From the NCBI GenBank assembly GCA_001800315.1, contig MGVE01000011.1, positions 1 to 64,000 of the forward strand: a DNA stretch of 64,000 nucleotides, written 5' to 3'. Under the pieces are notes generated by a model. The model saw only the letters and a program-made list of their open reading frames with translations, did no database searches and was not told where the DNA came from. Each line of letters begins with the position of its first letter. Position 1 is the first letter of the stretch. This document shows positions 43,801-64,000 of the stretch, in pieces. The position numbers and the translations under genes were made by a program. The DNA is from Elusimicrobia bacterium RIFOXYA2_FULL_47_53. Its GTDB lineage: Bacteria > Elusimicrobiota > Endomicrobiia > Endomicrobiales > XYA2-FULL-47-53.

Positions 43801-44866
43801 GCTCGGGCTTTATGTCCATGTGCCTTTTTGCAGGCGCAAATGCGGGTACTGCGACTTTTATTCAATTGTCCGCGACGAAGAACTTGTCAAAAAATATATT
43901 GCTGCCGTAGGGCGTGAAGCCGCTGAATATGCCGATATAGCGCCCGGGACTGTTTTCGCGGGCGGCGGGACGCCTTCCATGCTGTCTGCCGAAGAAATCA
44001 CGGACCTGTTTAACGGTATTTTTTCTTCTTTAGACAAAAGATTAGTCAAAGAGTGGACTGTTGAGTGCAACCCGGAGTCTTTAGACAAGGACAAACTGCT
44101 GGCTATGAAGTCCTGCGGAGTAAACAGGTTAAGTATAGGCATCCAGTCCTTTAATGACGACGAATTGAGATATTTAGGCCGTGTGCACGACTCGGAGCAG
44201 GCAATAAGGGCTTACAACCTGGCAAGAGAGCGCGGTTTTAATAATATCTCCTGCGATCTTATCTACGGCCTTCCCGGACAGGACAAAGATCTCTGGAAGC
44301 GGAATCTCTCTGCCGCCGTAAAACTCGGTTTTGAGCACATTTCAATATATCCTCTTACAGTAGAACCCGGCACGGCGCTGTTTGAAAAGGCGCTGACTGT
44401 TGACGACGAGCTTCAGGCCGGCCTCTACACCTGGTCAATGGATTTTCTGTTGAAAAGCGGTTACGGCCAGTACGAAATTTCCAACTGGAGCAGGCCGGGT
44501 TTTGAGTGCGCCCATAATATTAATTACTGGGAAAACGGCGAATATATCGGGCTGGGGCCGGCGGCGGCCTCGCATCTGGATTTTCTCAGAAGCAAGAACG
44601 AGCCCGATATTAATAAATATGTTCAGGGAGCTGTTCAAAAGGTAGAATGCGAAAGGCTTGAGCCGGACGCGAAGCTGGGAGAAAATATTATGCTCGGCCT
44701 TCGCTGCGAGAAAGGTGTTGTGATAACGCCCAGGATCAAAGAGCTTTACGGCAGCGCGATAGACAAGCTTTACGGAGAGGGACTGGTGCAAATATCAGCT
44801 GATTTAATCTCTCTGACAAGTAAAGGGAAGCTTCTTGCTAACAGAGTGTTCGGAGAATTTATTTAA
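43793..44866 (+). CDS. hemW: HemW-like radical SAM heme chaperone
   Basis: 357 residues. The iron-sulfur motif is Cys13, Cys17 and Cys20 in HVPFCRRKCGYCDFYS. GGGTPSMLS, ECNPESLDKDKL, RLSIGIQSFNDDELRYLGRVH and CDLIYGLPGQ are HemW family signatures, and the C-terminal HemN_C-like domain is present. HemW is a heme-binding chaperone, not a coproporphyrinogen oxidase, despite common annotation. It starts within the SPFH gene and its stop overlaps the next glycosyltransferase. Confidence 0.93.
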   Translation: MAKLGLYVHVPFCRRKCGYCDFYSIVRDEELVKKYIAAVGREAAEYADIAPGTVFAGGGTPSMLSAEEITDLFNGIFSSLDKRLVKEWTVECNPESLDKDKLLAMKSCGVNRLSIGIQSFNDDELRYLGRVHDSEQAIRAYNLARERGFNNISCDLIYGLPGQDKDLWKRNLSAAVKLGFEHISIYPLTVEPGTALFEKALTVDDELQAGLYTWSMDFLLKSGYGQYEISNWSRPGFECAHNINYWENGEYIGLGPAAASHLDFLRSKNEPDINKYVQGAVQKVECERLEPDAKLGENIMLGLRCEKGVVITPRIKELYGSAIDKLYGEGLVQISADLISLTSKGKLLANRVFGEFI

Positions 44867-46002
44867 TGGTTGAGAATATTGAAGTTTCAGTTGTAATTCC
44901 CTGTTTAAACGAAGAAAAGACTATAGCCTCCTGCGTGGATAAGGCTATGAAATCTTTTGCCGAGGGCGGATTGCGCGGCGAGGTAATAGTCGTGGATAAC
45001 GGCTCAACGGATCAATCAAAAGCTATCGCCGCGGCCCGCGGGGCTAAGGTCATAGATGAAACAAGGAAAGGCTACGGCAGCGCGCTCAGGCGGGGAATTG
45101 ATGAAGCGCAGGGCAGTTATATAATCATGGCTGACGGAGACGATACTTACGATTTCTCTTTGTCTCACAAGTTTGTTGGGAAACTCAAAGAGGGCTATGA
45201 CCTGGTGATGGGTTCAAGGTTCAGGGGCAAAATACTCCCCGGCGCCATGAGCTGGTCCCACAGGTATGTCGGCAACCCGATACTTTCAGGTATGCTCAGG
45301 CTTTTTTTCGGAGGCACCGTATCGGATTCCCACTGCGGCCTGAGAGCTTTTACCAAAGACGCCTACAAAAAAATGGGGCTTCACACGACCGGCATGGAAT
45401 TTGCCTCGGAAATGGTTATTCACTCGCTGAAAAAGAAACTTAAAATAGCCGAGATACCCATAATATATTACGCGAGGCTGGGCGAGTCCAAACTGGCCTC
45501 TTTCCGCGATGCCTGGCGCCATATGCGTTTTATGCTTGTATATTCGCCGGGTTATCTTTTTCTTCTGCCCGGGGCGGCTGTATTTACCGCCAGCTTCCTG
45601 CTCTCCTGCAGGCTTCTTTTGGGCCCTATTTACTGGCTGGGCAGGCCCTGGGATATTCATGTTATGGTTTTCTCAGCGATGTTTACCCTGCTTGGATGGG
45701 AGATATTAAACCTCGGCCACGCCGCTAAAATGTTCGCCTACGAAATATCGCTTGAGCAAAGCAGATACGCGCTGACCGCGTCAAAATTTGTCACGCTTGA
45801 GAAATCTCTGCTGCTGGGAACATTTTTTATATTGTCAGGTTTCGCGATAATGACTTTGATTATTTATAAATGGGCGAACAATAATTTCGGCGAGCTTTCC
45901 GAGGTAAAGACCGGCGTATTCTCTTTAACTCTCATAGTAATGGGTTTCCAGACCATCTTTACGGCGTTTCTCTCGGGAATGCTCTCCATAAAATACAGGT
46001 GA
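44866..46002 (+). CDS. GT2 dolichol-phosphate-mannose-synthase-like glycosyltransferase with membrane domain
   Basis: 378 residues. The GT-A domain (1-230) has SVVIPCLNEEKTIASCVDKA, VVDNGSTDQSKAIA, MADGDDTYDF (DXD) and SRFRGKILPGAMSW. At least four transmembrane helices follow (about 232-375). Enzymes of this type usually load a sugar onto a polyprenyl phosphate in the membrane. It overlaps the hemW stop by one base and is followed after one base by a radical SAM gene, opening the accessory glycan region. Confidence 0.88.
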   Translation: MVENIEVSVVIPCLNEEKTIASCVDKAMKSFAEGGLRGEVIVVDNGSTDQSKAIAAARGAKVIDETRKGYGSALRRGIDEAQGSYIIMADGDDTYDFSLSHKFVGKLKEGYDLVMGSRFRGKILPGAMSWSHRYVGNPILSGMLRLFFGGTVSDSHCGLRAFTKDAYKKMGLHTTGMEFASEMVIHSLKKKLKIAEIPIIYYARLGESKLASFRDAWRHMRFMLVYSPGYLFLLPGAAVFTASFLLSCRLLLGPIYWLGRPWDIHVMVFSAMFTLLGWEILNLGHAAKMFAYEISLEQSRYALTASKFVTLEKSLLLGTFFILSGFAIMTLIIYKWANNNFGELSEVKTGVFSLTLIVMGFQTIFTAFLSGMLSIKYR

Positions 46003-46003
46003 T

Positions 46004-47446
46004 ATGAAAGTATTTATTATCAACGAGCCTTTTGTGCCTGACTTCTGCAGGACGCAAAGATGGGCCGCCAGGACCAGAGGGCGGGTTTTGCGCGCTCCCG
46101 ACTGGCTTGCCTATGCCGCGGCGGTCGTGGAGAGAGATATCCCGGGCGTTGAGGTAAAACTTTACGATTTTCCGGCCTTAAACTGGGATAAAACGAAATT
46201 AAAAGAGATTGTCTCCGCGGAAAAGCCTGATTTCGTCGTTCTTGATTCAACCACTCCTTCAATATTTTCAGACATTGAGTGCGCCCGCATAGTCAAAGAC
46301 AACTGCGGAGCCGCCGTGATAATGGTCGGACCGCACTGTTCGTCGCTCCCTGAGGAAACATTAAATAAGGCCGCGGGGGCGGTTGACGCGGTCTGTATCG
46401 GCGAATACGATTACACGGTGCGCGATGTTATTGCCAACTATGGGAATCTAAGCGCCGTGCCAGGCATCTGTTATCTGGATAACGGCGCGCCGCGGCTGAC
46501 AGCCTCCCGGGCTCCCATAGAAAAACTTGACGATCTTCCTTTTCCGGCGTGGAAACACCTGGACCTTAAAAAATACTTTGACGGCGGTAAGCTCTACCCG
46601 TACATTGACATAATTTCGGGGCGCGGCTGTCCCAACAGGTGCATCTTTTGCTTATGGCCGCAGGTTATGCACGGCTACCGTTACCGTTTCAGAAGCCCGG
46701 AAAATGTGGTGGACGAAATAGAATACGACATAAACCTCTGCCCCGGCGTTTTAAAGGGCGGGGAGTTTTTCTTTGAGGACGATACATTTACGGTTGATAA
46801 ACCCAGGGCCCATAAAATATGCGACGAGATAATCAGAAGAGGCCTTAAACTGACTTTTTCTGTAAACGCCAGGGCTGATATTTATGACCTGGAATTGTTT
46901 TCTAAGATGAAGAAGGCCGGCTGCCGCGAACTGCTGGTCGGCTTTGAATCCGGCGACCAGGAAGTTCTTGATAAGATGCGCAAGAATATTAAACTTGAGG
47001 ATTCCGCGCGATTCATGGAAATCGCTAAAAAGGCCGGCCTTGAGGTTCACGGCTGTTTTGTTTTCGGCCTGCCCGGGGAGACTCCGCGGACCGCTGAAAA
47101 AACCATAAAGTTCGCCTTAAGCCTCGGTCTTGATACCGTGCAGTTTTCGGGCGCCGTTCCTTTCCCTGGGACAGATTTTTTTAATATCTGCGAAACTAAC
47201 GGGTGGCTTCTGACAAAAGACTGGGGGAAATGGCTGGACGCCGGAGAACAGCAGGGCGTGGTTTCATATCCGACCATCTCGCAGCAGCAGATCAATTATT
47301 TTGTTGACAAGGGCCTTAAGAGTTTTTATTTCAGGCCTTCATATATGATAAAGTTTCTTCTCAAGACCAGGTCTTTGCCGGATCTGTACAGAAAGTTCAG
47401 GGGCTTTGGCAACTTTATGTCGTATCTCACGGAAAAGATATTTTAA
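46004..47446 (+). CDS. B12-binding-type radical SAM protein
   Basis: 480 residues. Residues about 1-170 form a Rossmann-like domain similar to B12-binding domains (VVLDSTTPSIFSDI, VMVGPHCSSLPEE, VCIGEYDYTVRD), though no DxHxxG His motif is present. The radical SAM core has Cys209, Cys213 and Cys216 (GRGCPNRCIFC), then FFEDDTFTVDKPRAH and GFESGDQEVLDKMRKN. Such enzymes often methylate unactivated carbons or remodel lipids and secondary metabolites. Neighbouring GT2 suggests a glycolipid substrate. Exact reaction unknown. The 351-base gap that follows contains repeats. Confidence 0.87.
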   Translation: MKVFIINEPFVPDFCRTQRWAARTRGRVLRAPDWLAYAAAVVERDIPGVEVKLYDFPALNWDKTKLKEIVSAEKPDFVVLDSTTPSIFSDIECARIVKDNCGAAVIMVGPHCSSLPEETLNKAAGAVDAVCIGEYDYTVRDVIANYGNLSAVPGICYLDNGAPRLTASRAPIEKLDDLPFPAWKHLDLKKYFDGGKLYPYIDIISGRGCPNRCIFCLWPQVMHGYRYRFRSPENVVDEIEYDINLCPGVLKGGEFFFEDDTFTVDKPRAHKICDEIIRRGLKLTFSVNARADIYDLELFSKMKKAGCRELLVGFESGDQEVLDKMRKNIKLEDSARFMEIAKKAGLEVHGCFVFGLPGETPRTAEKTIKFALSLGLDTVQFSGAVPFPGTDFFNICETNGWLLTKDWGKWLDAGEQQGVVSYPTISQQQINYFVDKGLKSFYFRPSYMIKFLLKTRSLPDLYRKFRGFGNFMSYLTEKIF

Positions 47447-47530
47447 TGCGCGGCATCGTTCTTGCCCAAATTGTGCGACAAAACAAGGCGAAATCCTTAA
47501 TTTGATATATTCAATCATATAACCAGATTG

Positions 47531-47797: not shown

Positions 47798-48715
47798 ATG
47801 TGGTATATTGAAAAACTCGCGGCTCCGCTCAGCAGGGAAAAACTCCGTCTTTCCGGAAACAGGCTCATCGGCGAGGCCTCGGGCGTGAGTTTTGATATTA
47901 ATGATATGGGGATACCGCTTTTTGGAGCAAAGGCTTGTTCAAAAGAAGCGAGGATTCAGGAAAAACATTATAAGAAGATCAATGAATCCTATATAGAGAA
48001 CCTGGCTTACCCTCACACGGACGAATATACGCGTTATCTGGATAACAGGCTGTTGGCTCTGGCAAAACAGCGGAATTTTGGCGATGTAGCTGAACTCTGC
48101 TGCGGCAACGCTGAAGGCCTGGCTCTTTTAAAGGGCCGCCTCACTCACGGGCTTGGCGTGGATATATCAACGGAAATGCTTTCAGAGGCGCGAAAGAGGC
48201 TGCCGCAGGATCTATTTTATTTCGCGCAGGCTGACGCGGTTATGCTTCCTCTGGCGGACAGTTCGTTTGACTCGGTTATAATGCTGGGCGGCATACATCA
48301 TATTATTGATAGAAAGGCGCTTTTCGGCGAAGTGCGCAGGATTCTTAAGCCCGGGGGAGTATTTTACTGGAGGGAGCCTCTGAGCGATAACTTTATATGG
48401 AAAGGGCTGAGGAGCCTTATTTACAGGCTTTCGCCTTCTCTTGATTTTGACACCGAAAGGCCTCTGGAGTTCTCGCGTGATTCAGCAGCGCTGGAAGAAA
48501 GCGGTTTAAAACTGCTAAACTGGCAGCGCTGCGGTTTTTTCGCGTTCGCTTTGTTTATGAACAGCGATATTCTGCACTTCAATAAACTGTTCAGGTTCGT
48601 GCCGGGTATCCGCGCTGTTGTTCGCGCCGTGGCAACGGTTGACGAGGCGCTGCTTAAAATATTCAATGAGTTCGGCCTGCTGGTAATAGGATCCGCCGTA
48701 AAACGGGAGGTTTAA
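47798..48715 (+). CDS. Class I SAM-dependent methyltransferase
   Basis: 305 residues. Residues 1-80 are a leader domain without a recognised fold. Motif I is VAELCCGNAEGLALL, followed by LGVDISTEMLSEARKR, SFDSVIMLGGIHHI and RRILKPGGVFYWREP, the typical UbiE/UbiG-like order. The C-terminus lacks clear membrane helices. No strong ribosome-binding site is seen. It overlaps the next GT2 by one base. Substrate is probably a sugar or lipid intermediate of this cluster. Confidence 0.82.
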   Translation: MWYIEKLAAPLSREKLRLSGNRLIGEASGVSFDINDMGIPLFGAKACSKEARIQEKHYKKINESYIENLAYPHTDEYTRYLDNRLLALAKQRNFGDVAELCCGNAEGLALLKGRLTHGLGVDISTEMLSEARKRLPQDLFYFAQADAVMLPLADSSFDSVIMLGGIHHIIDRKALFGEVRRILKPGGVFYWREPLSDNFIWKGLRSLIYRLSPSLDFDTERPLEFSRDSAALEESGLKLLNWQRCGFFAFALFMNSDILHFNKLFRFVPGIRAVVRAVATVDEALLKIFNEFGLLVIGSAVKREV

Positions 48716-49668
48716 TGGATAATACTGTGATAAGCGTGATCGTCCCGGTATTCAATGAAGAGGACAGCCTCAAAGAGCTCTATGCCCAGCTGGTAGCGGT
48801 CCGCGAGAGCGCCAAACTGAACATGGAGATAATATTTGTTGACGATTCGTCAACGGACGGCTCAAAAAATATTTTAAAAGAGCTCGCCGGATCCGACAAA
48901 TCGTGCAAGCTGGTCAGCTTTAATAAGAATTACGGACAGACAGCGGCCATCGCCGCCGGCATACGCGCCTCGCGCGGCTCAATTATCGTTACCATGGATT
49001 CTGACCTTCAGAACGATCCCGCCGACATTCCTATATTAATTGCCGGGCTCAACAATGGGGTGGATGTAGTCAGCGGCTGGCGCAGGGAAAGAAAAGACCC
49101 TTTTATCTCAAGGCTTCTCCCAAGTATGGCCGCTAACGCCATATTGTCTTTTATGACCGGCATTAAACTGCATGATTTCGGCTGCACGCTGAAAGCCTAC
49201 AAAAGGGAATATATTGAAAATATCTCTATTCACGGCGAGATGCACAGGTTCCTGCCGGCATACTGCGCCTGGCAGGGCGCGAAAATAACCGAGGTTGTCG
49301 TAAACCACAGGCCGAGGAAATACGGTTCTTCCAAGTACGGTTTCGGTTCCAGGACTTTCAAAGTTACCTTAGACCTGCTGGTTTTAAAATTTCTGCTTTC
49401 ATATATCACCAAGCCTATTTATGTTTTCGGCGGAGTGGCCTTGATTTCGTTTCTGGCGGGCGGCGCGGTGGGCTTATGGGCCTTGTATAGAAACTTGTAC
49501 CTGAATGTTCCCTGGATGAATCCTCTGTTTTTTGTCTGGATGCTTTTCTGGGCCTTAAGCGTTGTTTGTTTCCTTCTCGGACTTCTGGCGGAGGTAATAG
49601 TGCGTTTTTATCTTGAGGTCAGGGGTTTTCCAGTATATAAAATCGCCGAGAAGGCAAATTTAGAATAA
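48715..49668 (+). CDS. GT2 polyprenyl-phosphate glycosyltransferase (ArnC/GtrB-like)
   Basis: 317 residues. SVIVPVFNEEDSLKELYAQL, IIFVDDSSTDGSKNIL, VTMDSDLQNDPADIP and HDFGCTLKAYKREYIENI, then HRPRKYGSSKYGFGSRTFK, are hallmarks of ArnC/GtrB enzymes. Two C-terminal transmembrane helices (about 236-258 and 270-296) anchor it. It probably makes an undecaprenyl-phosphate sugar that a GT-C enzyme, perhaps the one at 50658-52601, uses outside. Overlaps both neighbours by one base. Confidence 0.9.
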   Translation: MDNTVISVIVPVFNEEDSLKELYAQLVAVRESAKLNMEIIFVDDSSTDGSKNILKELAGSDKSCKLVSFNKNYGQTAAIAAGIRASRGSIIVTMDSDLQNDPADIPILIAGLNNGVDVVSGWRRERKDPFISRLLPSMAANAILSFMTGIKLHDFGCTLKAYKREYIENISIHGEMHRFLPAYCAWQGAKITEVVVNHRPRKYGSSKYGFGSRTFKVTLDLLVLKFLLSYITKPIYVFGGVALISFLAGGAVGLWALYRNLYLNVPWMNPLFFVWMLFWALSVVCFLLGLLAEVIVRFYLEVRGFPVYKIAEKANLE

Positions 49669-50657
49669 TGAAAAAGGAATTGCTCGGTTATATCTGCTGC
49701 CCTTCGTGCCGTTCCCCGCTGGAGCTTGAGGGAGCCGTTGAAGAAGGCGCGGAGATCGTGTCCGGCAGCCTGCTCTGCCGCGCCTGCGGCGGAATATACG
49801 CTGTTGAAGGTGGCGTGCCAAATCTTTTGCTTAAACAGAAACTCGGCGACGAAAAAATAATGTCGCGCGGTTTTGAATTTGAGTGGAAATATTTCTTCAG
49901 AACCTCTAAGCCGTATTTTAAGCAGATGTTTTTAGAGTGGGTCGCGCCGCTGAAAGACGATGATTTTTCAGAGCGGGTTATTTTAGACGCCGGCTGCGGG
50001 ATGGGGAGAAACAGCCTTATAGCGGCTTCAATGGGAGCAAAAGCGGTTATAGCTTTTGATATCCATGATGCCGTCAAACTGTTTTACGGCAGAAGCAAGG
50101 CTGTGAAGAACCTGCACATCGTTAAGGCCGACATATTTAACCCTCCTTTTAAGCGGGTATTTGATATTGTATATTCCGCCGGTGTTTTGCATCATACGCC
50201 CAGCCCTTCATTGGCTTTTAAAAAACTCTCAGAGCTGGTAAACCCCGGCGGTGTATTCTCCAGTTTTGTATACGGGCGGGAAAACAATTCGTTTATCGCG
50301 AAGGTGGTGTCTTTTTTCAGGGAGTCCGTGATATCCAGAATGCCCAACCTGTTTGTCCTGCTGTTGTCCTATGTTTTGGGGTTTCTGCTTTTTATTTTCC
50401 TTAAATTCGTTTTCACGCCCGTTAATTATGTTTTCAAACTTGCCGGTACCGGGAATTTTGCCGGCTATTTCAGGTTTCTTGCCGGGACCGATTTTGAATA
50501 CAGCGTCCATGTGGTCTTTGACCATCTGGTCACTCCGATAGCTTCTTATCACGCTAACAGCGAAGTTGAGTCCTGGTACAGGGATAACGGGTTTTCGGAT
50601 GTCAAAGTGTGGAACCGTTACGGTATCACTCATATAGGTTTTGGAAGGAAAAAATAA
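49668..50657 (+). CDS. Methyltransferase with N-terminal zinc ribbon and internal hydrophobic segment
   Basis: 329 residues. The N-terminal Trm112-like ribbon has Cys11, Cys14, Cys37 and Cys40. The SAM site is LDAGCGMGRNSLIAASMG followed by VIAFDIHDA and the GVLHHTPSP loop. A strongly hydrophobic stretch at about 228-250 (LFVLLLSYVLGFLLFIFLKF) sits in the C-terminal half, which suggests action at the membrane. Such enzymes are found in many glycan clusters. Overlaps its upstream neighbour by one base and abuts the next. Confidence 0.83.
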   Translation: MKKELLGYICCPSCRSPLELEGAVEEGAEIVSGSLLCRACGGIYAVEGGVPNLLLKQKLGDEKIMSRGFEFEWKYFFRTSKPYFKQMFLEWVAPLKDDDFSERVILDAGCGMGRNSLIAASMGAKAVIAFDIHDAVKLFYGRSKAVKNLHIVKADIFNPPFKRVFDIVYSAGVLHHTPSPSLAFKKLSELVNPGGVFSSFVYGRENNSFIAKVVSFFRESVISRMPNLFVLLLSYVLGFLLFIFLKFVFTPVNYVFKLAGTGNFAGYFRFLAGTDFEYSVHVVFDHLVTPIASYHANSEVESWYRDNGFSDVKVWNRYGITHIGFGRKK

Positions 50658-52601
50658 ATGGCGTTTGTAATAAACCTGTTACTGCTTTTATTCGGAGCCT
50701 GGCCGCTTCTGGGCGGCAGCCCGGTGCAGTCTGCGCCGCTCGCGATAGCGCTGTACTACTACATACTTATCTACCTGCCCGGATATTACCTGTTAAAATA
50801 CTTTCTTGAAAAAGACAAGTACTCAATGCTTGAACTGATTCCCTTAAGCCTCTGCGCCGGTTACATATTTATTCTTCCCTGGGTGTTTCTCTCTTACACA
50901 TTTAATCTGCACATATCGGTTTTACTTAAGCTTTATATCGCGGCAGTCGCCCTGGCGCTGTTGGCGGACAAGTTCCTTGCCGGCGCGAAGCAGGATTTCT
51001 CTTTCAATAAGATACAGGTCAAAGGCTGGTATCTGTTCGGTTTGGCGGCGGTGCTCGCGGCGGCCGCGATAATGTCAAATTATTACGGCGGCTTTATAAG
51101 CGGGAATTTTCTGCCACATGTAAGCCAGATCAGGAAGCTGGCTGAATTCGGGGTTATTGAGCAGCGGTCGTGTTATTTTAAGGATTTTTTGTACGATCCG
51201 AATGTTTACAGCAGTTATTATGTGTTTCTTTCTTCTTTATCCTGGATAACTAAGATAGACCCGGTAAAGATATGGATTTTTCTGCCCCAGTTTATTTTTC
51301 CGGTGGGCCTGCTGGCGAACTTTGTTTTCGCGGGAAGAGTTTTAAAAAATTACGCCGCGGCTCTGTTGTATGTAGCGGTATATTTCGTATATTACGCGCT
51401 GTATAACCCGGGCGGCCCAGCGGACGGCCACGCGTGGCTTCAGTCGGAGCTTTCCGCCTGCAACAACTACATCGCGATGGGTATTTTCCTTCCTATGATA
51501 TTCCTTGTGCTGTATGATTATCTGGAAGAGAAGAACAAAAAGCTCCTCTATCTTCTGCCGCTTTTATTTCTCGGGCAGGGCGCGGTTCATCTTTATGTCC
51601 AGTCAAAGACCTATTTCATTCTCTTTTCGCTCCTGTTTATGGCGTTTCTCATCAGGCCAAGGCCGTTTGACTGGAAGACACTGCTAAAACCCGTCGCGTT
51701 CTCTCTCGCGGGTTTCGTCCTTTTTATATATGTGTTTTTTCTGCTTCAGCCTAACATTAACCCGGCATACAAAACGGCGGGCGGGACCGGCGGCGGCCTG
51801 CCTATGGTGTTTTTCGGCAAGTGGCCTCTGGTAAATCCTTTGCTCACTTTGCTCAACGACCCGGTAACCATAGCGGCCTGTATATTTTTCTTCCTGCTTG
51901 TGCCGTTTGTTAAGAGCGATTTTCCGGCTTTTTATATTTTCGCGATTGTTTCTTCCGTTTCTTTTATAATTTTTAATCCGCTGATGCTTCGTTTTGGAGG
52001 AATACTCCAGCCTTCCTACGAGAGAATAACCAGGCTGTATAATATTATCCCTTTTGCCCTGATGCTGGCTTATCCTCTGAGCAGGGCTTTTGAAAATAAC
52101 GGTAATTATTTAAGGAAGTACAGGCGTTACATAGCGATAGCTCTTGTCGCGGCGCTGGCTTTTACGCTGAAGGATGTTCCAAAACGCCTCGGAGCGATAG
52201 TTTATAACAAGAGCAATTCGCTGCTTGAGCTTGGGAGGAACAAACCTCTTTACGATCTTATCAGGGCGCATATCCCGGCCGGCTCGGTGGTTATGATTAA
52301 CGAGCCTCTTACTACCTGGTGGACGACCTATTTTCCGCACTACATTGTGGCTCATGCTTTTGGTTTTGTTCTGCCTCCCAATATGGATCAAACTCAGAGA
52401 AAAAAAGACCTCGCTGATTTTTATGCCAATCCGTTTTCGTCTCAAGGCGAGGAGATTCTGCGTAAATACGATGTAAGTTACATTTTCTTTATGGCCGCGG
52501 AATTAAAGCCCTTTGATGCCGCTAAGGCCGGTTTTCTGGAAAGAGTTTACGCTAACCCGCAGTTTGAGATTTTTAAGGTGAAAAGCAATGCCGGACAATA
52601 A
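50658..52601 (+). CDS. Large polytopic membrane protein, putative GT-C glycosyltransferase
   Basis: 647 residues with about 13 transmembrane helices in residues 1-510 and a soluble C-terminal domain (about 520-647) with RAHIPAGSVVMINEP and ILRKYDVSYIFFM. This layout resembles uncharacterised GT-C enzymes that use polyprenyl-linked sugars, but the acidic pair after helix 1 is not evident, so catalysis is unproven. It lies just after an ArnC-type GT2 and a methyltransferase, consistent with a glycan transfer step on the periplasmic side. The end overlaps the next GT2 by 14 bases. Confidence 0.6.
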   Translation: MAFVINLLLLLFGAWPLLGGSPVQSAPLAIALYYYILIYLPGYYLLKYFLEKDKYSMLELIPLSLCAGYIFILPWVFLSYTFNLHISVLLKLYIAAVALALLADKFLAGAKQDFSFNKIQVKGWYLFGLAAVLAAAAIMSNYYGGFISGNFLPHVSQIRKLAEFGVIEQRSCYFKDFLYDPNVYSSYYVFLSSLSWITKIDPVKIWIFLPQFIFPVGLLANFVFAGRVLKNYAAALLYVAVYFVYYALYNPGGPADGHAWLQSELSACNNYIAMGIFLPMIFLVLYDYLEEKNKKLLYLLPLLFLGQGAVHLYVQSKTYFILFSLLFMAFLIRPRPFDWKTLLKPVAFSLAGFVLFIYVFFLLQPNINPAYKTAGGTGGGLPMVFFGKWPLVNPLLTLLNDPVTIAACIFFFLLVPFVKSDFPAFYIFAIVSSVSFIIFNPLMLRFGGILQPSYERITRLYNIIPFALMLAYPLSRAFENNGNYLRKYRRYIAIALVAALAFTLKDVPKRLGAIVYNKSNSLLELGRNKPLYDLIRAHIPAGSVVMINEPLTTWWTTYFPHYIVAHAFGFVLPPNMDQTQRKKDLADFYANPFSSQGEEILRKYDVSYIFFMAAELKPFDAAKAGFLERVYANPQFEIFKVKSNAGQ

Positions 52602-56397: not shown

Positions 56398-57645
56398 ATG
56401 AAAATAGCTTATGTTTCAAATTATCTGCCGGGATTTCATTCCCATGTGGGTGGCGCTGAAAAGGCTTTAAAACAGACGGCCGAACTTGCCCGTGCAAAAG
56501 GGCATGAGCCTGTTTTTTTCTCTCTGCCCGCGGGGAGCCGCGCCAACGGCCTTTATCAGATAAAAACTTTAGAGTCATATCTTCCTTTTCTCTCCAGACT
56601 CATTGAAATTCTAAAATGGTACATATTTCAGTTTGATCCCGTCGCGTATTTTGGTGCTTTGAAAGCCTTAAGGATGGCAAAGCCTGATATAGTCCATCTG
56701 GGCAACTTTCAGTTTCTGACTTTTTCCGTAGTCGCGGCGGCCCAAAAACTCGGGATACCGGTTATAGTTTCAATTTACGATTACTGGTATTTCTGCCCGC
56801 TTACGACGCTTATCCGGTATGATACAAAGGCCTGCCGTTTGTTCCACGGGCCGGAGTGCGTAAAATGCACCCCGAAAACCTTCAGCGCGGCGCAGAGCGT
56901 TTTGTTGCGCTTCCGTAAGGATCTGTTTAACAAGTATTTAAATATGGCGGACAGGTTCATTGTTTTGTCGGAATCGTCCCGCTCCATACTCAACGCTTAC
57001 GGAATACCATTCAACAAAATAAATGTTATCAGGTTTTCCGTACAACCCGAAGCCGCCGCGGCGCGTGCCGATAAGGCCGAGGAAGACAGCGTTTTGTTTA
57101 TCGGCTGGAAGCAGAAAAGAAAGGGTTTTCATATTCTGCTGGAAGCCATGAAGAAAATAGTTAAAGAGAAACCTTCGGCTAAACTGACAGCTCTTTTGCA
57201 GGATGTAAAATGGGAGAAAGATTACGAGAAGCAGATTGAATCTCTTTTATCCCAACTGCCGGAAGGCTCTGTTGTTATTGAAAAGGGGCAGAAAGACAAA
57301 GCATATATTGACCGGCTGTTTTCTCGGGCCGCGGTAGTGGCGGTGCCGGAACAGTGGGAGAATATGTCGCCGCTTATAGTAATAGAAGCGATGCTTAAAG
57401 GGAAAGCGGTCGTGGCGTCTGATCTGGGCGGAATTCCCGAGTTTATAAGTTCCGGGAAAGACGGCCTGCTTGCCGTTTACGACGACGCGGATGATTTTTC
57501 TAAAAAAATATTGTATCTTTTTGGCAATAAGGACAAGGCCGCGGAGCTCGGCGATAACGCCAGGGCAAAGGTTGAGCGGCTGCTTTCGGAAAATATAATA
57601 GCGGAAGAACTGAATACGGAGTATTCCAAATGGATAAAGCGGTAA
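56398..57645 (+). CDS. GT4 family glycosyltransferase
   Basis: 415 residues. The N-terminal domain has VGGAEKALKQTAELARAKGHEP and IVHLGNFQFLT; the donor domain has LFIGWKQKRKGFHILLEAM, AVVAVPEQWENMSPLIVIEAMLKGKAVVASDLGGIPE. The EQWENMSPLIVIEA stretch replaces the EGFG motif but keeps the second glutamate. It contains a cysteine-rich patch (CRLFHGPECVKC) seen in some GT4 enzymes. It overlaps the next gene by 16 bases. Confidence 0.88.
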   Translation: MKIAYVSNYLPGFHSHVGGAEKALKQTAELARAKGHEPVFFSLPAGSRANGLYQIKTLESYLPFLSRLIEILKWYIFQFDPVAYFGALKALRMAKPDIVHLGNFQFLTFSVVAAAQKLGIPVIVSIYDYWYFCPLTTLIRYDTKACRLFHGPECVKCTPKTFSAAQSVLLRFRKDLFNKYLNMADRFIVLSESSRSILNAYGIPFNKINVIRFSVQPEAAAARADKAEEDSVLFIGWKQKRKGFHILLEAMKKIVKEKPSAKLTALLQDVKWEKDYEKQIESLLSQLPEGSVVIEKGQKDKAYIDRLFSRAAVVAVPEQWENMSPLIVIEAMLKGKAVVASDLGGIPEFISSGKDGLLAVYDDADDFSKKILYLFGNKDKAAELGDNARAKVERLLSENIIAEELNTEYSKWIKR

Positions 57646-58373
57646 TTCTTGCCGGCGGCAAGGGCCTTAGGTTCGGCTCGGACGCGAACGATGTTCCAAA
57701 GCCCATGGCCGAGGTCTGCGGTAAACCTATAATTCATTATATCGTGTCCATGCTAAAAGGCCTGGGCTTTAAGAAATTATATGTCGTGGTCGCCTATAAA
57801 AAGGAAGTCATAATAGATTACCTTTCCGGCGGCCGCTACGGGCTTGATTTTGAGTTTATTGACAACAGCAATATCAATAACCTGGTGAAAAGCGGACTCA
57901 GCGACGCCGTACTGCTTTTAAAGGAAAAAATCAAAGAGCCGTTCATGACTATTTTGGGCGACGAGATCTACGCCGGCACTTCCCATAAAGCTATGATAGA
58001 GAAATACGAATCCGGCGCGGGCTATTCATCGGTGATCGCGGTGCACAGAGCAAAGGATATTGAGGAAGTAAAAAAGAATTACTCGGTTATGACGGACAAG
58101 AGCGGGCTGATTGTTGACCTGGAGGAAAAGCCGCAAAAACCCTGGAACGACCTTATCGGCTGCGGAACTTATATATTTGACTCTGAAATATTCGGCTACA
58201 TAGAAAAGACCCCGGTTTCAGCCAGAAGCGGCAGGAAAGAGCTGGCCGACACCATGAAGCTGATGATACGGGACAACAAAAAAATATTCGCGTTTGATAT
58301 CGCCGGGCAGTACCTCAATATAAATTATCCGGAAGACATCGCGAGAGCCTGCGCGATAATGGGAGCTAAATAG
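57630..58373 (+). CDS. Sugar-1-phosphate nucleotidyltransferase
   Basis: 247 residues. The activation loop is AVILAGGKGLRFGSDANDVPKPMAEVCGKPII, the standard NTP-transferase motif; YVVVAYKKEVIIDYL, FMTILGDEIYAG and VDLEEKPQKPWNDLIGCGTYIF complete the fold. It likely makes an NDP-sugar for the nearby glycosyltransferases. The base and sugar cannot be assigned, since GDP-mannose, dTDP-glucose and CDP-glucose enzymes share these motifs. The stop overlaps the next GTG start by one base. Confidence 0.87.
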   Translation: MDKAVILAGGKGLRFGSDANDVPKPMAEVCGKPIIHYIVSMLKGLGFKKLYVVVAYKKEVIIDYLSGGRYGLDFEFIDNSNINNLVKSGLSDAVLLLKEKIKEPFMTILGDEIYAGTSHKAMIEKYESGAGYSSVIAVHRAKDIEEVKKNYSVMTDKSGLIVDLEEKPQKPWNDLIGCGTYIFDSEIFGYIEKTPVSARSGRKELADTMKLMIRDNKKIFAFDIAGQYLNINYPEDIARACAIMGAK

Positions 58374-59500
58374 TGGAAATTATAGACTCAAGACGGCTAA
58401 AGCTTATCGCGATGGCGTGGTCGCGCTTAAAGTATGTTTTATACCACCTCTCACGGCTTGATTTCGCCTCCGCCTACAACTATGTATGGGTGTCAATGTT
58501 CACGCGCGACGCCGGCCTCGGGCTTGCGGACTGGATATACAGGATAAACCCTTTCCTCGCGCCGTATCCTAAAACCATGGAGGTGGAAGTTACCACCAGA
58601 TGCCATCTGAAATGCAGGATCTGCGAGCATTCCTACTGGAAAGAACCGGCGCGGGATATGTCTTTTGACGAGTTCAAGCGCGTTGTGGACCAGTTTCCGG
58701 ACCTTAAGTGGATCGGGCTTACGGGCATCGGTTCTTCCTTTATAAATAAAGATTTTCTTGCCATGCTGCGCTACCTTAAATCCAGGAATGTTTTTATTGA
58801 ATTTTTTGATACCTTTGACCTTGTGGACGAAAAAGTATCGCGGGAGCTCGTGGACATAGGCGTTGACAAAATATGGGTCTCCATGGATGCCGCTACAAAA
58901 GAAACCTATGAATCCATACGCGTGGGGGCCAGATTTGAACGGACGCTCGGCAATATCAATAAATTGTTCGCCGAAAAGAAAAAACGCGGACGCAGGCTTC
59001 CCGAGGTCTGGTTTCACTACATCATTAATAAGGACAATGTCGCCGAGATGCCAAAATATGTGGATCTGGTTAAACAGATTGCTGACGGCGGAAACAATTA
59101 CGCCACGCTTATTTATTTTACCTCTCTGCTGTATTTCAACGAGGTTAAGGATTTGATTCCTCAGATACCCGCCGAAACAAAAGCCGAGGTTCTAAAAAAG
59201 GCTCACGAGGCCGGAATTTTTGTGAACTGGAACGAGAATGTTTCCTGCGACAAGCCCATAAGGGACTGCACCAAATGGGTGGAACCCTTTGTGCTTGTGA
59301 CAGGACATGTTCAGCCCTGCTGCGCGATGAATATGGCAAACGACAGGGAGTTTCAGAAAGAGAACAGCTGGGGCAACCTGCTGACCGAAGATTTTAAAGA
59401 CATCTGGGACTCGCCTAAGGTTAGGGAGTTCAAGAAGCGGATAAACTCCAATATCCGGCCCGCCGTATGCAAAAACTGCAGAATTTACCTCTCCAAATAG
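58373..59500 (+). CDS. Radical SAM/SPASM domain protein
   Basis: 375 residues, GTG start at 58373. There is no B12-binding domain; instead a helical, possibly membrane-associated leader of about 65 residues precedes the core. The cluster cysteines are Cys77, Cys81 and Cys84 (TTRCHLKCRICEH). The C-terminal SPASM-like region has QPCCAMNMAND and a final VCKNCRIYLS, suggesting auxiliary clusters. The middle IWVSMDAATKETYESIRVGARFE is typical of this class. SPASM enzymes modify peptides, or sugars (as in some aminoglycoside enzymes). A sugar substrate is plausible from context. Confidence 0.85.
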   Translation: MEIIDSRRLKLIAMAWSRLKYVLYHLSRLDFASAYNYVWVSMFTRDAGLGLADWIYRINPFLAPYPKTMEVEVTTRCHLKCRICEHSYWKEPARDMSFDEFKRVVDQFPDLKWIGLTGIGSSFINKDFLAMLRYLKSRNVFIEFFDTFDLVDEKVSRELVDIGVDKIWVSMDAATKETYESIRVGARFERTLGNINKLFAEKKKRGRRLPEVWFHYIINKDNVAEMPKYVDLVKQIADGGNNYATLIYFTSLLYFNEVKDLIPQIPAETKAEVLKKAHEAGIFVNWNENVSCDKPIRDCTKWVEPFVLVTGHVQPCCAMNMANDREFQKENSWGNLLTEDFKDIWDSPKVREFKKRINSNIRPAVCKNCRIYLSK

Positions 59501-59587: not shown

Positions 59588-59706
59588 CGTCATTCCAGAA
59601 ATTTTCTGTCTGGAATCCACAACGGCCGTCGTTCTGATCTCCCGCAGGGAGAGAAGAATCTCGTTGTTGGATGAAAAACGAGACCCTTCACTTCGCTCAG
59701 GGTGAC
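59588..59706. repeat. Palindromic intergenic repeat (two units)
   Basis: The first unit pairs ATTCCAGA (59592-59599) with TCTGGAAT (59609-59616), inside CGTCATTCC..GGAATCCA. The second pairs TCTCGTT (59659-59665) with AACGAGA (59677-59683), flanked by GTCGTTCTGA and CTCAGGGTGAC, the form of common dispersed bacterial repeats. The right part overlaps the apparent start of the following reading frame. The rest of 59501-59587 holds no gene and only a weak GGCGAG/CTCGCC inverted repeat. Confidence 0.65.
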
Positions 59707-60306
59707 TTTACATGTTTTGGGAAATCTTCACAGTCAGCCCTGAGCTGGGGATTTGCCGATGTCATAAGCGCTGAAGAGACAACGCTAAAGCTGATGCTGG
59801 ATAACCCTATGTTCGGCACAGCATCGGGATTATTGAAAAACAGCGCAACAAAATCCATGTGGCTTGTTGTGACAAAACTGGACATGGGCGAATCGCCTCA
59901 AGCCGATATAGTAGTTGAATTGTTTGGACCTGATCGTATTAGTCCAGGGCAGACAATTACCTACACTATTGAGGTGAAGAATAATGGATTGGCGTCAGCA
60001 AATGATATAAGTTTAATTGCAAAAACACCTGAACGCTCGCAATTCATTTGTGCTTCCGGGAACTATATATATAACGAACTGGCCCATTGGGTTACCAACA
60101 GTGAATATTATAATGTTTCAGTGCTTAGATGGGACTTTACAGAATTGCCTGCAAAAACAACAACAAAGATAACTATGACAGTGAAGCTCAATTGGGGGAT
60201 TAGTTGGGGCGCAAATATGCAGGTTGAAACATTTGCAATGCCAAAATCCAATGCTGATGAAATATTCCCATTACCGTATCCGGACTATGGGACAGATGAT
60301 GATTAG
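59671..60306 (+). CDS. DUF11-type repeat domain protein, probably a truncated gene remnant
   Basis: The frame codes for 211 residues, but its first ATG and about 12 codons lie inside the palindromic repeat, so the N-terminus is doubtful and the gene may be 5'-truncated. The part from about residue 75 (PQADIVVELFGPDRISPGQTITYTIEVKNNGLASANDISL) is a DUF11/CARDB-like beta-sandwich found as tandem modules in large surface proteins. There is no signal peptide. Codon use becomes AT-rich from about 59.9 kb, unlike the neighbours. It may be a fragment of a larger surface protein. Confidence 0.45.
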   Translation: MKNETLHFAQGDFTCFGKSSQSALSWGFADVISAEETTLKLMLDNPMFGTASGLLKNSATKSMWLVVTKLDMGESPQADIVVELFGPDRISPGQTITYTIEVKNNGLASANDISLIAKTPERSQFICASGNYIYNELAHWVTNSEYYNVSVLRWDFTELPAKTTTKITMTVKLNWGISWGANMQVETFAMPKSNADEIFPLPYPDYGTDDD

Positions 60307-60335
60307 AATAGTGTTTCTATTTTAGGAGGATATAT

Positions 60336-61637
60336 ATGAAATTATTGCACAGTGCATTTATTGTATTGTTTCTGATTTTGCCAAAACTGAATGCCCAGGA
60401 GGTTCAGCCTAAGCTTCTTTGGAACAAGCAGTTTGAAATGCCTATTCAGGACATTGCAATGAGTAAGGACGGTTCAAGAATTGTTGTTGTAACTGAACCG
60501 AAAATAGAAATTATCAAAGACAAGCGCTATGGCGAAGGTAGAAAAACATGGAAAGGCGGTAATAAGCTATTTTACTTAGACAACACAGGTAATGTTTTAT
60601 GGGCATATGAATGCAATGAAGCCAGGCCTTTAAAAAGAAAAGCATCTGAAGTTGTTAGTGAAGATGGATTTAAGATGGAATTGTCAAAAATTAGTGATGA
60701 CGGAAAATATGTGGCCTGTAAAGTCATAAAGATATATTCGGAAAAACCATATTCAGATAATTCTCAATTGTGGCAGCCAAAAGAAATCGTTCAAACACTG
60801 TTTTTTGGTTCAGATGGTAAATTATTTTGGTCAAACGATAAATATAATATAGAAGAAATATCACCTGATAATACATATTTACTTGCCATGATAAATAAAC
60901 CCGATGAGAATAGTATGGATCATTGCGCGCTACTTGGGGTTGATGGTGCAGTCATCAAAGAAATTGATAGTGAAGTTAGCGGCCGTTCGCTTACAAAAAT
61001 AATTAGTGGCGGGGAATATGTTTTTATTGACAATATGATTTTGGATAGAAAGGGCAATGTTTTTTTCAGACAAACAAACCCTTTTGTTTTATGGGAATAT
61101 ATTAGTGAAAATGAAGAATATGCGCTTGGGGTAGTATATAATGACCTAAGTGATGCAAGTATTTTAGAAGGGGATTACTCTAAAGGTTTTGCATGCTTTG
61201 ATATTAAAAACAAAAAAATATTGTGGTCAAAAGAAAAACATAAAAAACCGAATATAAAAAGATGCTTTATTTCTACTAAAGGTGTGAATGAATATTTTAT
61301 AACTTTCTCTGACCAAACTATAAATAGTAGTGAATCGGGAACAGTAAATATATATGATTTAAAGACCGGGGATAACCTGTTTTTATGGGGGATAAAGTCA
61401 GAGAATTTCGGAATTATGCCATATTTCTTTCAATGCGCAACAGTTAATAACGGTGATAATTTAATGTTGTATGAAATTATGAATAGATCGTTTATTTATT
61501 CAATAACTACAGGTGATTTTATGAGAGAATTTATAAGCGATATAAATGCAATTTCTGTAGATAATGGATTTGTGATTTCGATAAGTCAAGATAATTTAAA
61601 CCTAAAATATTATGATACGGGTGACACATTGAAATGA
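60336..61637 (+). CDS. Secreted beta-propeller-like protein of unknown function
   Basis: 433 residues. Residues 1-20 form a signal peptide (cleavage after LNA). The rest consists of repeated strands with SKDGSRIVVV, LFYLDNTGNVLWAYE, ISDDGKYVACKV, SSDGKLFWSNDKY-like (GSDGKLFWSNDKY), DIKNKKILWSKEKHK and YDLKTGDNLFLWG, which resembles PQQ/WD-type propeller blades. A perfect AGGAGG precedes ATG 60336. The gene is clearly AT-rich compared with the rest of the window, suggesting recent acquisition with the preceding frame. No catalytic function is apparent. Confidence 0.7.
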   Translation: MKLLHSAFIVLFLILPKLNAQEVQPKLLWNKQFEMPIQDIAMSKDGSRIVVVTEPKIEIIKDKRYGEGRKTWKGGNKLFYLDNTGNVLWAYECNEARPLKRKASEVVSEDGFKMELSKISDDGKYVACKVIKIYSEKPYSDNSQLWQPKEIVQTLFFGSDGKLFWSNDKYNIEEISPDNTYLLAMINKPDENSMDHCALLGVDGAVIKEIDSEVSGRSLTKIISGGEYVFIDNMILDRKGNVFFRQTNPFVLWEYISENEEYALGVVYNDLSDASILEGDYSKGFACFDIKNKKILWSKEKHKKPNIKRCFISTKGVNEYFITFSDQTINSSESGTVNIYDLKTGDNLFLWGIKSENFGIMPYFFQCATVNNGDNLMLYEIMNRSFIYSITTGDFMREFISDINAISVDNGFVISISQDNLNLKYYDTGDTLK

Positions 61638-61763: not shown

Positions 61764-61792
61764 TTTACAATCCTTTTTAATAATACTATAAT
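61764..61792 (+). promoter_or_regulatory. Near-consensus sigma70 promoter for a leaderless radical SAM transcript
   Basis: TTTACA (61764-61769), a 17-bp spacer and a perfect TATAAT (61787-61792) lie nine bases before ATG 61802. Transcription should begin between about 61799 and 61802, leaving at most about three bases of leader and no ribosome-binding site. The rest of the 61638-61801 gap is AT-rich with nothing else recognisable. Confidence 0.7.
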
Positions 61793-61801
61793 CTTACCGT
61801 T

Positions 61802-63304
61802 ATGCCCGAGATTAAATCAAAAAAAGTTTATATTTTTTATACATCTAACAGTAAGATGTATCCCTATTTCCCGAGCTCCGCGCTTGCCATTTCCGGCGTA
61901 ATGCTTAAAAGCGGTTATGAGCCGGTAATAATTGACACCGAACTAAATTCTAAGTGGGCGCAAACAGATCTCTCTGACGCGCTTTGCGTCTGTATAAGCA
62001 CCTTCACCGGCCCCTGGCTTAAAACCGCAATTCAGGCCGCCGGTATGGTGAGAAAAAATTATCCCGGCCTTAAAATTCTCTGGGGCGGGCCGCATGCCAT
62101 AGCGCTTCCCGAAGTTACCGCCAAACACCACCTTGTTGACTGCGCCTGCTATACAGAAGGGGAAAATGTGATTGTTCCTCTGCTGGACAGCGTTTACAAC
62201 GGAACCCCTTTTAGTGAAGTAAAAGGCGTAATTTTTAGAGATGAGCGCGGCGTTATAGTTAAAACCGATTTGCCTGCTGAAGTTGAGATGGATTCCCTTG
62301 AACTGCCGCCTTACCAGCTTCTGGATCTTAAGCTTTACTCCATAAAAGAGGGCAGGGTGTATTATCAGACCAGCAGGGGCTGTGTTTTTAAGTGCAGGTT
62401 CTGCTCTTACGAGGCCGGAAAAAAATGGCGTTCAAAAACCCCCGAAAAGGTAATTGAAGATTTTAAGAAAATCATATCCATGTTTAATCCCGAGGAGTTC
62501 CAGATTTTTGACGGGAATTTCTTTGTGGACCTTTCACGGGTGAGAAAAATACTTGAAAAGAAGCTGGAGCTCGGGCTGAAATTCAAGTGGAGCGCTTACT
62601 GCCGCTTTGACACCTTCTCTCGCTTGGACGAATCCATGCTTTCTCTGCTTAGAAGCTCGGGCTGCTGCGAACTAAAGTTCGGAGGCGAGTCCGGTTCTCC
62701 GAAAATCCTGAAGTATGTCCAGAAAGAGACCAAGCCCGAACAGATAATTTACGGTGTCGGCAAATGTTTTGAGTACGGCATTACGCCCACGCTTTCATTT
62801 ATGACCGGATTTCCCGAAGAGGGCGACGCCGAACTCGGCGAAACTCTGGCGCTTATAAATAAACTGCGCCGCGAGTATCCCAAACTTGCCATCAACGGGC
62901 TTTTCATGCTCCAGCATCTCCCCAATACGCCGCTTACCGACGAGATACTTGAAAAATACGGCATAGAGCATCCCAAGACCATGGAAGAATGGGTTGATTA
63001 CCATTTAATTTGGACTAAAAAAAGCGACTATCCTTGGATGAATAACAGAGAGTATTCCAAACGAAAAACGCTCTCTTCCATAATGAGCTACCTCTACCTC
63101 TCAGGTGTGCTTGAGAACCTGCCGAAAAAACAACGGGCCGGAACTGTCTTAAAATCCGATATGGTTTTCGCGCTTTTTAAAGCAGTGAATATGATAGTCA
63201 GAAAAGTTTTTGTGAAACTGCGCTGGGATATGGGTGTCACGGCCTTGCCCGTTGAGTGGCGAGTCTGGGACTACATCAGGGAAGACATTCTGAGGATGTG
63301 CTGA
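61802..63304 (+). CDS. B12-binding-type radical SAM protein
   Basis: 500 residues. The N-terminal domain (YPYFPSSALAISGVMLKSGYEPVIIDTE, ILWGGPHAIALPEVTA, CYTEGENVIVPLL) is B12-binding-like. The cluster cysteines are Cys194, Cys198 and Cys201 (SRGCVFKCRFC). FQIFDGNFFVDLSRVRKIL and LKFGGESGSPKILKYVQKE continue the core, followed by a long C-terminal region. The GC content returns to that of the main chromosome. A separate promoter starts a new transcript that also includes the next radical SAM gene, two bases downstream. Confidence 0.87.
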   Translation: MPEIKSKKVYIFYTSNSKMYPYFPSSALAISGVMLKSGYEPVIIDTELNSKWAQTDLSDALCVCISTFTGPWLKTAIQAAGMVRKNYPGLKILWGGPHAIALPEVTAKHHLVDCACYTEGENVIVPLLDSVYNGTPFSEVKGVIFRDERGVIVKTDLPAEVEMDSLELPPYQLLDLKLYSIKEGRVYYQTSRGCVFKCRFCSYEAGKKWRSKTPEKVIEDFKKIISMFNPEEFQIFDGNFFVDLSRVRKILEKKLELGLKFKWSAYCRFDTFSRLDESMLSLLRSSGCCELKFGGESGSPKILKYVQKETKPEQIIYGVGKCFEYGITPTLSFMTGFPEEGDAELGETLALINKLRREYPKLAINGLFMLQHLPNTPLTDEILEKYGIEHPKTMEEWVDYHLIWTKKSDYPWMNNREYSKRKTLSSIMSYLYLSGVLENLPKKQRAGTVLKSDMVFALFKAVNMIVRKVFVKLRWDMGVTALPVEWRVWDYIREDILRMC

Positions 63305-63305
63305 T

Positions 63306-64000
63306 ATGGTAAAGGTGGCTTTAATTAATCCCGGCAAATCACAGCGTTTCGCGGTTCAGGAACCGCTTAACCTCGGTTTTCTCGCCGCCTACCTTGAAAA
63401 AAACGGCGCTCAGGTAAAAATATTTGACCAGCTTTCAGGCCAGGATGTGCCCGCGCTTCTTAATGACTTTAAGCCCGATGTGGCCGGCATTACAAGCACA
63501 ACTCCCGTGGCCTATGACGCCTATGCCGTAGCCGACCACTGCAAAAGCAGGGGGATTCTTACCGTCATGGGCGGTGTTCATCCCTGGATGTTTCCCGAGG
63601 AGGCCCTTGAGCACTGCGACATTGTGGTAAAAGGCGAAGGGGAAAAGGCGCTCGTTGATATTGCGCTTCACAACAAAAGGGACCGCGTTATTGAGGGCGG
63701 CTATATAGAGAATATTGAGGAGATACCCTTTCCGGCGCGCCATCTAATGGACATGGAACGCTACCTCTACTGCAAAAAGTATGTGCCCTACATTCTTCAT
63801 CTGCCCTATGTGCCGGCCAACGCGAAAATTATTCATATACTTACAAGCCGCGGCTGTCCTCACTCGGAATGTATTTTCTGCCACAACTCGTTCAAACGCT
63901 TCCCGTACCGGGCTAACAGCGCCGAGAAGGTCATTGAGGAAATAAAACAGCTTAAAAAAGATTACGGTATAGAAGCGCTTTATTATGTGGAAGACGATTT
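63306..64000 (+). CDS. B12-binding-type radical SAM protein (3' truncated by the window)
   Basis: 231 full codons are visible from ATG 63306; the frame is open to the window end. The N-terminal domain has ALINPGKSQRFAVQEPLNLGFLAAYLEKNG, VMGGVHPWMFPEEAL and VVKGEGEKALVDIAL, typical of B12-binding-type proteins. The iron-sulfur motif is Cys184, Cys189 and Cys192 (RGCPHSECIFC), which has four residues rather than three between the first two cysteines. The start is two bases after the preceding stop, so both are in one operon. The substrate is unknown. Confidence 0.85.
   Translation, partial: MVKVALINPGKSQRFAVQEPLNLGFLAAYLEKNGAQVKIFDQLSGQDVPALLNDFKPDVAGITSTTPVAYDAYAVADHCKSRGILTVMGGVHPWMFPEEALEHCDIVVKGEGEKALVDIALHNKRDRVIEGGYIENIEEIPFPARHLMDMERYLYCKKYVPYILHLPYVPANAKIIHILTSRGCPHSECIFCHNSFKRFPYRANSAEKVIEEIKQLKKDYGIEALYYVEDD

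Follow-up and report, generated by a model that had tools for sequence, protein, structure and literature searches.

What is assembled by a locus in which radical S-adenosylmethionine (SAM) proteins alternate with glycosyltransferases (GTs)? Such a locus occupies the right-hand part of a 64-kb stretch of DNA from Elusimicrobia bacterium RIFOXYA2_FULL_47_53 (the window, corresponding to bases 1-64000 of contig 11, C11, of this genome, G000). A preliminary description of the window reported five B12-type radical SAM proteins and one SPASM-type radical SAM protein amid GTs of families 2 and 4 (GT2 and GT4), methyltransferases, a nucleotidyltransferase and a GT-C-like gene. The coordinates and Pfam classes of these genes were confirmed; all named open reading frames lie on the plus strand, and many overlap by 1-16 bases. 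Three of them form a core: GT2a (44866-46002), located directly after hemW, which is of the polyprenyl-phosphate sugar synthase type within GT2 and ends in membrane helices; rS1 (46004-47446), an HpnJ-like B12-binding radical SAM protein with the motif CPNRCIFCLWPQ; and GT2c (52588-53556), another GT2 with C-terminal membrane helices (Glycos_transf_2, 137 bits; MftF-like, 151 bits). On balance, the locus appears to be a surface-glycan assembly cluster, O-antigen-like or for glycoprotein glycans, organised around this mobile and widely conserved GT2a-rS1-GT2c core, in which rS1 would remodel a lipid-linked sugar. The HpnJ-likeness of rS1 and the cassette shared across phyla go beyond what the preliminary description saw.

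The three-gene core across phyla

Genome contigs were scanned for the rS1 family with two peptide patterns drawn from Endomicrobia sequences, so that distant members are under-sampled. The scan returned 68 loci, most of them 57-74% identical, in about fifteen phyla of bacteria and archaea according to the labels of metagenome-assembled genome records, which can be wrong. Bacterial loci are labelled Elusimicrobiota/Endomicrobia, Omnitrophota, Sumerlaeota, Caldiserica, Chitinispirillaceae, Chloroflexi, several delta-proteobacterial groups, Nitrospirota, Myxococcota, Bdellovibrionota, Planctomycetota, Magnetococcales and WOR-3, and archaeal ones Hydrothermarchaeota, Methanosarcinales and Methanophagales. 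Three archaeal-labelled rS1 sequences are almost identical and were therefore counted as one lineage.

Two glycosyltransferases recur beside rS1. In 42 of the 58 loci with enough flanking sequence, rS1 is followed within 2.5 kb by a GT2c relative (tblastn, at least 33% identity over at least 180 amino acids), mostly at a distance below 250 bp. GT2a relatives are present in 48 of these loci and precede rS1 in 36. Up to 3.5 kb away from rS1, GT2a and GT2c matches number 0.10-0.12 per kb; in the remainder of these loci they are 17-19 times sparser, at 0.006 per kb. Neighbouring genes were called by a simple hexamer script that misses some genes, including rS1 itself in four tblastn-positive loci (L098, L099, L103 and L109). 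Minimal cassettes of the three genes occur in the archaeal-labelled loci L074, L078 and L080. A compact set is also found in a cultured sulfate reducer, Solidesulfovibrio alcoholivorans DSM 5433 (L105), where a GT-C-type protein with multiple transmembrane segments (7030-8706) is followed by GT2a (8799-9989), rS1 (about 10027-11464) and GT2c (11424-12506); the next gene, on the opposite strand, encodes an unrelated oxidoreductase.

GT2a, rS1 and GT2c are the only proteins of the window that recur jointly across lineages. Relatives of the SPASM protein (48-52% identity) and of the GT4 enzyme (40-41%) appear in two cross-phylum rS1 loci each, and no orthologues of the methyltransferases MT1 and MT2 or of the radical SAM protein rS4 were found in these loci at 38% identity or above. 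Across about fifteen phyla, then, the three core genes form a unit. This bears on the possibility that the locus is an ordinary variable O-antigen or exopolysaccharide locus, where the B12-type radical SAM proteins work separately, each C-methylating or deoxygenating a nucleotide sugar or a sugar residue, and the genes merely accumulate. The cobalamin-dependent radical SAM (Cbl-rSAM) class most commonly catalyses C-methylation (PMC13142503), and three glycan-type loci of G000 (L003, L004 and L005) are rich in genes for B12-type radical SAM proteins, GTs, epimerases and asparagine-synthase-like proteins. The middle of the locus, moreover, varies between Endomicrobia families. The genes GT2a, rS1 and GT2c, however, do not assort freely, as their density around rS1 in many phyla demonstrates. 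Mere accumulation thus seems a rather doubtful account of the locus, but may be right for the remaining B12-type proteins, rS2-rS5.

rS1 as a distinct HpnJ-like clade

No named radical SAM family reached its NCBIfam cut-off with rS1, which supports the preliminary description. The best match is HpnJ (TIGR03471): rS1 scores 366 bits, short of the cut-off of 577.6, which true HpnJ sequences exceed with 685-833 bits, and their identity to rS1 is about 34-39%. In a quick IQ-TREE tree, the relatives of rS1 form one clade of 78 rows (SH-aLRT 96) outside the true HpnJ clade (100). rS1 represents a distinct HpnJ-like radical SAM clade. Two more HpnJ-like groups (L126, L129-L138, L156, L158 and L159), scoring 361-411 bits and below the HpnJ cut-off, fall outside both the HpnJ and the rS1 clades.

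Sequence features tie rS1 to HpnJ and set the two apart. Both carry CLWPQ directly after the cluster cysteines (CxxxCxxCLWPQ), an EDD stretch and further common residues that are missing from rS2-rS5. The cysteines C209, C213 and C216 of rS1 are invariant across 38 sequences. The CxxxCxxC motif, an N-terminal B12-binding domain (38.7 bits) and a fold matching TsrM, OxsB, CysS and TokK are those of Cbl-rSAM enzymes, and rS1 probably uses SAM and cobalamin. In contrast to HpnJ, where it is mostly missing, rS1 has a conserved Arg-rich N-terminal loop at residues 16-35 (R16, R19, R25, R27 and R30). The structural model of rS1 is confident overall (pLDDT 88.5), with a low-confidence stretch at residues 11-30 coinciding with this loop, which might become ordered when the enzyme takes up an anionic substrate, for instance a polyprenyl-phosphate sugar; its conserved arginines are predicted to bind the lipid phosphate.

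The resemblance to HpnJ raises the possibility that the locus belongs to a hopanoid pathway, rS1 being an HpnJ that makes the cyclitol ether head group. In that pathway, HpnI, HpnK and HpnJ add N-acetylglucosamine to bacteriohopanetetrol, remove its acetyl group and turn the sugar into the cyclitol ether, and a species without hpnJ has the glucosamine form only (PMC12583986). The likeness extends to the order of events, in which a GT2 attaches a sugar to a lipid and an HpnJ-type radical SAM enzyme then remodels the sugar, and HpnJ is the best NCBIfam match of rS1. The score nonetheless falls short of the family cut-off and the clades are separate; in four genomes (G167, G168, G179 and G181) a relative of rS1 coexists with a true HpnJ. 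Neither GT2a nor GT2c is HpnI, GT2a being of the polyprenyl-phosphate type. The preliminary description had proposed looking for co-occurring hopanoid genes, and this search came out negative: squalene-hopene cyclase has no match in G000, none above the cut-off in 100 relatives searched, and is above the cut-off in only 8 of 45 rS1-bearing genomes. Since the cyclase is lacking at that cut-off in most rS1-bearing genomes and in G000, hopanoid synthesis is excluded for G000. The hopanoid pathway is rejected for G000 unless hopanoids are imported, and we regard it as extremely improbable.

Other known systems resemble rS1 in part. The solved structure closest to the rS1 model is the diol-dehydratase AprD4 with paromamine (6fd2; TM-score 0.76-0.81), followed by TsrM, MgmA, CysS, OxsB and TokK, and AprD4 is also the best PDB sequence-profile match. 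Its substrate is an aminocyclitol sugar. rS1 misses the AprD4 family cut-off (98 against 500 bits) and is only 23% identical to AprD4, which serves a soluble antibiotic pathway and not a lipid-linked one, and which is not known to use cobalamin. B12_rSAM_oligo (TIGR04295) is likewise a B12-binding radical SAM family, with a name that points to oligosaccharide clusters, but its cut-off of 400 bits is not reached by rS1-rS4 (39-94 bits) or by rS5 (70 bits).

Proposed remodelling of a lipid-linked sugar

The cassette often lies beside an STT3-type oligosaccharyltransferase. By a local profile iterated on its own matches, 16 loci, Methanosarcinales L085 among them, encode an STT3/PglB/AglB-type protein at a distance of 1-5 genes from rS1; the neighbours in three loci were confirmed with Pfam. 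Such a protein is encoded by the gene preceding GT2a in Omnitrophota L068 and Chitinispirillaceae L082, and stands just upstream of rS1 in Nitrospirales L101. PF02516 searches independently matched genomes with the cassette, among them that of L085 (G166), where the matching contig also encodes a relative of rS1. GT2a has three transmembrane segments, its best NCBIfam match is AglJ (TIGR04182; 170 bits, below the cut-off of 325), and its solved relatives are dolichyl-phosphate-mannose synthase (5mlz) and the undecaprenyl-phosphate Ara4FN (aminoarabinose) transferase. The core and its surroundings resemble AglJ-initiated N-glycosylation by AglB/STT3, both in the AglJ-like GT2a and in the STT3 genes that adjoin the cassette in loci from Omnitrophota, Nitrospirota and other groups. 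The genome of the window differs in lacking a Pfam STT3, and we know of no radical SAM step in AglB/STT3 N-glycosylation.

The recurrence of the core and its proximity to glycosylation enzymes suggest an undescribed kind of modified sugar. The preliminary description had envisaged a modified glycan, glycolipid or polyprenyl product, and the present results support a modified, probably polyprenyl-linked one. A route through a polyprenyl-phosphate sugar is proposed here because of the relatives of GT2a, the precedent of HpnI, HpnK and HpnJ, and the existence of ring-forming Cbl-rSAM enzymes: the few known members of the class that do not methylate form or rearrange rings (PMC13142503). We infer the substrate, the reaction and the order of steps as follows. 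GT2a would load a sugar onto polyprenyl phosphate; rS1, by analogy with HpnJ, would generate a radical on the lipid-linked sugar and remodel it, with C-methylation or deoxygenation as alternative outcomes; GT2c would extend or transfer the remodelled sugar. A GT-C enzyme (STT3 elsewhere; perhaps GTC1 or GTC2, the membrane proteins of this locus) would then pass the product to a protein or glycan, and the remaining radical SAM, methyltransferase, GT and nucleotidyltransferase genes would add lineage-specific decorations.

Both partners of rS1 are membrane-type GTs, which is also consistent with rS1 acting, by methylation or ring formation, on a polyprenyl or other lipid chain instead of on the sugar. 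Related Cbl-rSAM enzymes act on lipids, and roles in ladderane and glycerol dialkyl glycerol tetraether ring formation have been proposed (PMC13142503). Yet both conserved partners are sugar transferases, HpnJ works on a sugar head group (PMC12583986) and AprD4 on an aminocyclitol sugar, which makes a lipid-chain substrate improbable.

Several observations weigh against the proposed remodelling of a lipid-linked sugar by the core. No GT2c relative adjoins rS1 in 16 of the 58 loci at the threshold used, and inserted genes part GT2c from rS1 in the window and in some relatives. Genes for multiple-transmembrane proteins of GT-C size are only slightly enriched near rS1 (38 of 268 genes, against 17 of 184 further away). 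No PF02516 (STT3) match was found in G000 at E<=1e-3, and protein glycosylation is for this reason only a possibility in the organism of the window. The closest solved fold, AprD4, is a dehydratase and not a ring-contracting enzyme, so several types of reaction are conceivable: a ring or carbon rearrangement is a tentative suggestion, C-methylation somewhat unlikely, and deoxygenation or dehydration unlikely.

The furthest-reaching version of the proposal is an undescribed step of polyprenyl-linked glycan synthesis common to bacteria and archaea, in which an rS1-type enzyme would ring-contract or carbon-rearrange a polyprenyl-phosphate sugar. Surface glycans or N-glycoproteins would then start with a carbocyclic sugar of the cyclopentitol type or one of comparable oddity. 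We consider it a speculative idea with the odds clearly against it. More generally, a cassette with this chemistry, found in both domains and often next to an oligosaccharyltransferase, would imply an undescribed sugar in the glycans or glycoproteins of many uncultured bacteria and archaea. HpnJ, in the hopanoid side-branch, is the only case known to us in which radical SAM chemistry acts on a sugar attached to a lipid. Searches of a literature collection retrieved nothing relevant on a radical SAM step in glycosylation or on O-antigen together with B12-binding radical SAM proteins, no work joining oligosaccharyltransferase, radical SAM and cobalamin, and, for Elusimicrobia and radical SAM, no paper on such loci. 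The three-gene system of the cultured sulfate reducer offers a way to study non-methylating Cbl-rSAM enzymes, and the core provides a functional lead for one family among the many B12-type radical SAM proteins in the glycan loci of Elusimicrobiota and Omnitrophota.

Lineage-specific surroundings of the core

The locus begins directly after lepB-nfeD-stomatin-hemW and, as expected by the preliminary description, continues beyond the window; it ends 2.9 kb further on, at C11:66928, with GTC2 as the last gene, followed by hrcA-grpE-dnaK-dnaJ. rS1 orthologues with 69-74% identity occur in 8 of 150 relatives searched, representing four families of the same class. Gene order, the comparison of which had been suggested at the outset, is conserved most fully in G007, a member of another family of the same order: between the same hemW and hrcA, twelve genes (GT2a, rS1, GT2b, GTC1, GT2c, rS2, rS3, GT4, NTP, SPASM, rS5 and GTC2) are collinear with the window, rS4, MT1 and MT2 are missing, and other genes are inserted. 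G001 keeps the same order over a contig break within GTC1. The pair GT2a-rS1 or rS1-GT2c is kept in G003, G085, G087, G091 and G094, with a different remainder, and G084 retains GT2a-rS1. Order is thus conserved in relatives, but the part shared across families consists of the hemW-GT2a-rS1 border plus GT2c, while rS2, rS3, rS5, SPASM, GT4, NTP, GTC1 and GTC2 are collinear only in close Endomicrobia. The notion of one dedicated system of six radical SAM proteins accordingly finds only partial support and is rejected beyond close Endomicrobia: rS4 is missing in G007, and only rS1 of the six is kept across lineages.

Between rS1 and GT2c lie four accessory genes: MT1 (47798-48715), a class I SAM-dependent methyltransferase (Methyltransf_11, 72 bits); GT2b (48715-49668), an ArnC-like polyprenyl-phosphate sugar transferase (PRK10714, 175 bits), whose 58% identical orthologue adjoins rS1 in G007; MT2 (49668-50657), with a Trm112-like and a methyltransferase domain and two predicted transmembrane segments; and GTC1 (50658-52601), a GT-C-type membrane protein with ten transmembrane segments, weak STT3/PglB/DPY19 likeness and orthologues in G007 and G001. 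GTC1 matched no Pfam or NCBIfam family. The best Foldseek PDB matches of its low-confidence model (pLDDT 65) are STT3/PglB/DPY19, oligosaccharyltransferase subunits among them (E 2e-4 to 1e-3, TM-score 0.36-0.41), which is a hint; owing to the low confidence of the model, GTC1 is not accepted as a proven oligosaccharyltransferase.

Downstream of GT2c follow two B12-binding radical SAM proteins with Pfam Radical_SAM and B12-binding domains, rS2 (53556-54992), a lineage-specific accessory with 61-67% identical orthologues only in Endomicrobia relatives, and rS3 (54989-56395), with orthologues in G007 (58%) and G001 (54%). Next come three further accessory genes: the GT4 glycosyltransferase (56398-57645; Glycos_transf_1, 82 bits), the sugar-1-phosphate nucleotidyltransferase NTP (57630-58373; NTP_transferase, 86 bits; AglF-like, 137 bits, below the cut-off) and the SPASM radical SAM protein (58373-59500; Radical_SAM and SPASM; W_rSAM_matur, 137 bits against a cut-off of 380). 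SPASM and B12-type radical SAM enzymes are known from clusters for ribosomally synthesised and post-translationally modified peptides, and maturase and MftF models give weak matches to the SPASM protein and GT2c, as might be expected if the locus made a peptide or other natural product with GTs as tailoring enzymes. No named radical SAM family of such peptide clusters was matched at its cut-off (short precursor reading frames were not specifically searched), and the locus holds several polymer-type GTs and two large proteins with multiple transmembrane segments; this explanation is very improbable.

The stretch between SPASM and rS4 (59671-61637) contains a DUF11-domain fragment and a 433-amino-acid protein without a family match, which are missing from the syntenic G007 locus and are perhaps an insertion. 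rS4 (61802-63304; Radical_SAM) is likewise missing between SPASM and rS5 in G007, consistent with an insertion. The assignment of five proteins to the B12-binding type stands for rS1, rS2, rS3 and rS5, which have Pfam B12-binding domains, and is weaker for rS4, whose domain scores 22.4 bits, below the Pfam cut-off of 32.1. rS5 (63306-64000, continuing to C11:64655), with a 67% identical orthologue in G007, has both Radical_SAM and B12-binding domains when read whole from the contig. The CxxxCxxC motifs reported for the locus do not extend to rS5, which, like its G007 orthologue, has CX4CX2C (CPHSECIFC). The locus closes outside the window with GTC2 (C11:64652-66928), a 758-amino-acid membrane protein with a PMT_2 domain.

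Clustering of radical SAM genes in the locus is above chance: with 38 Radical_SAM matches in the 2.41 Mb of G000, about 0.3 are expected per 20 kb, against six in the locus, plus the adjoining hemW. There are 14 B12-binding matches in G000. Several B12-type radical SAM genes belong to further loci of glycan type on contigs C1 and C8, which are likewise rich in such genes, and the locus is therefore not unique in this respect. One of the genes (C1:100402-101814; L005:10391-11815) encodes an rS1 paralogue with 46-47% identity, which branches just outside the rS1 clade. Elsewhere in the window, positions 8573-22579 hold further genes of lipopolysaccharide type by their appearance when read by eye (a DUF374/GT4-like fusion and PIG-L-like, GT-C-like, GT4-like and RfaE-like genes). 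Contig C6 (232358-260248; L180, L181 and L182) carries a single open frame of 9296 amino acids with a signal-peptide-like start, holding TPR repeats, a CofD match, a radical SAM and B12-binding stretch and a HATPase domain.

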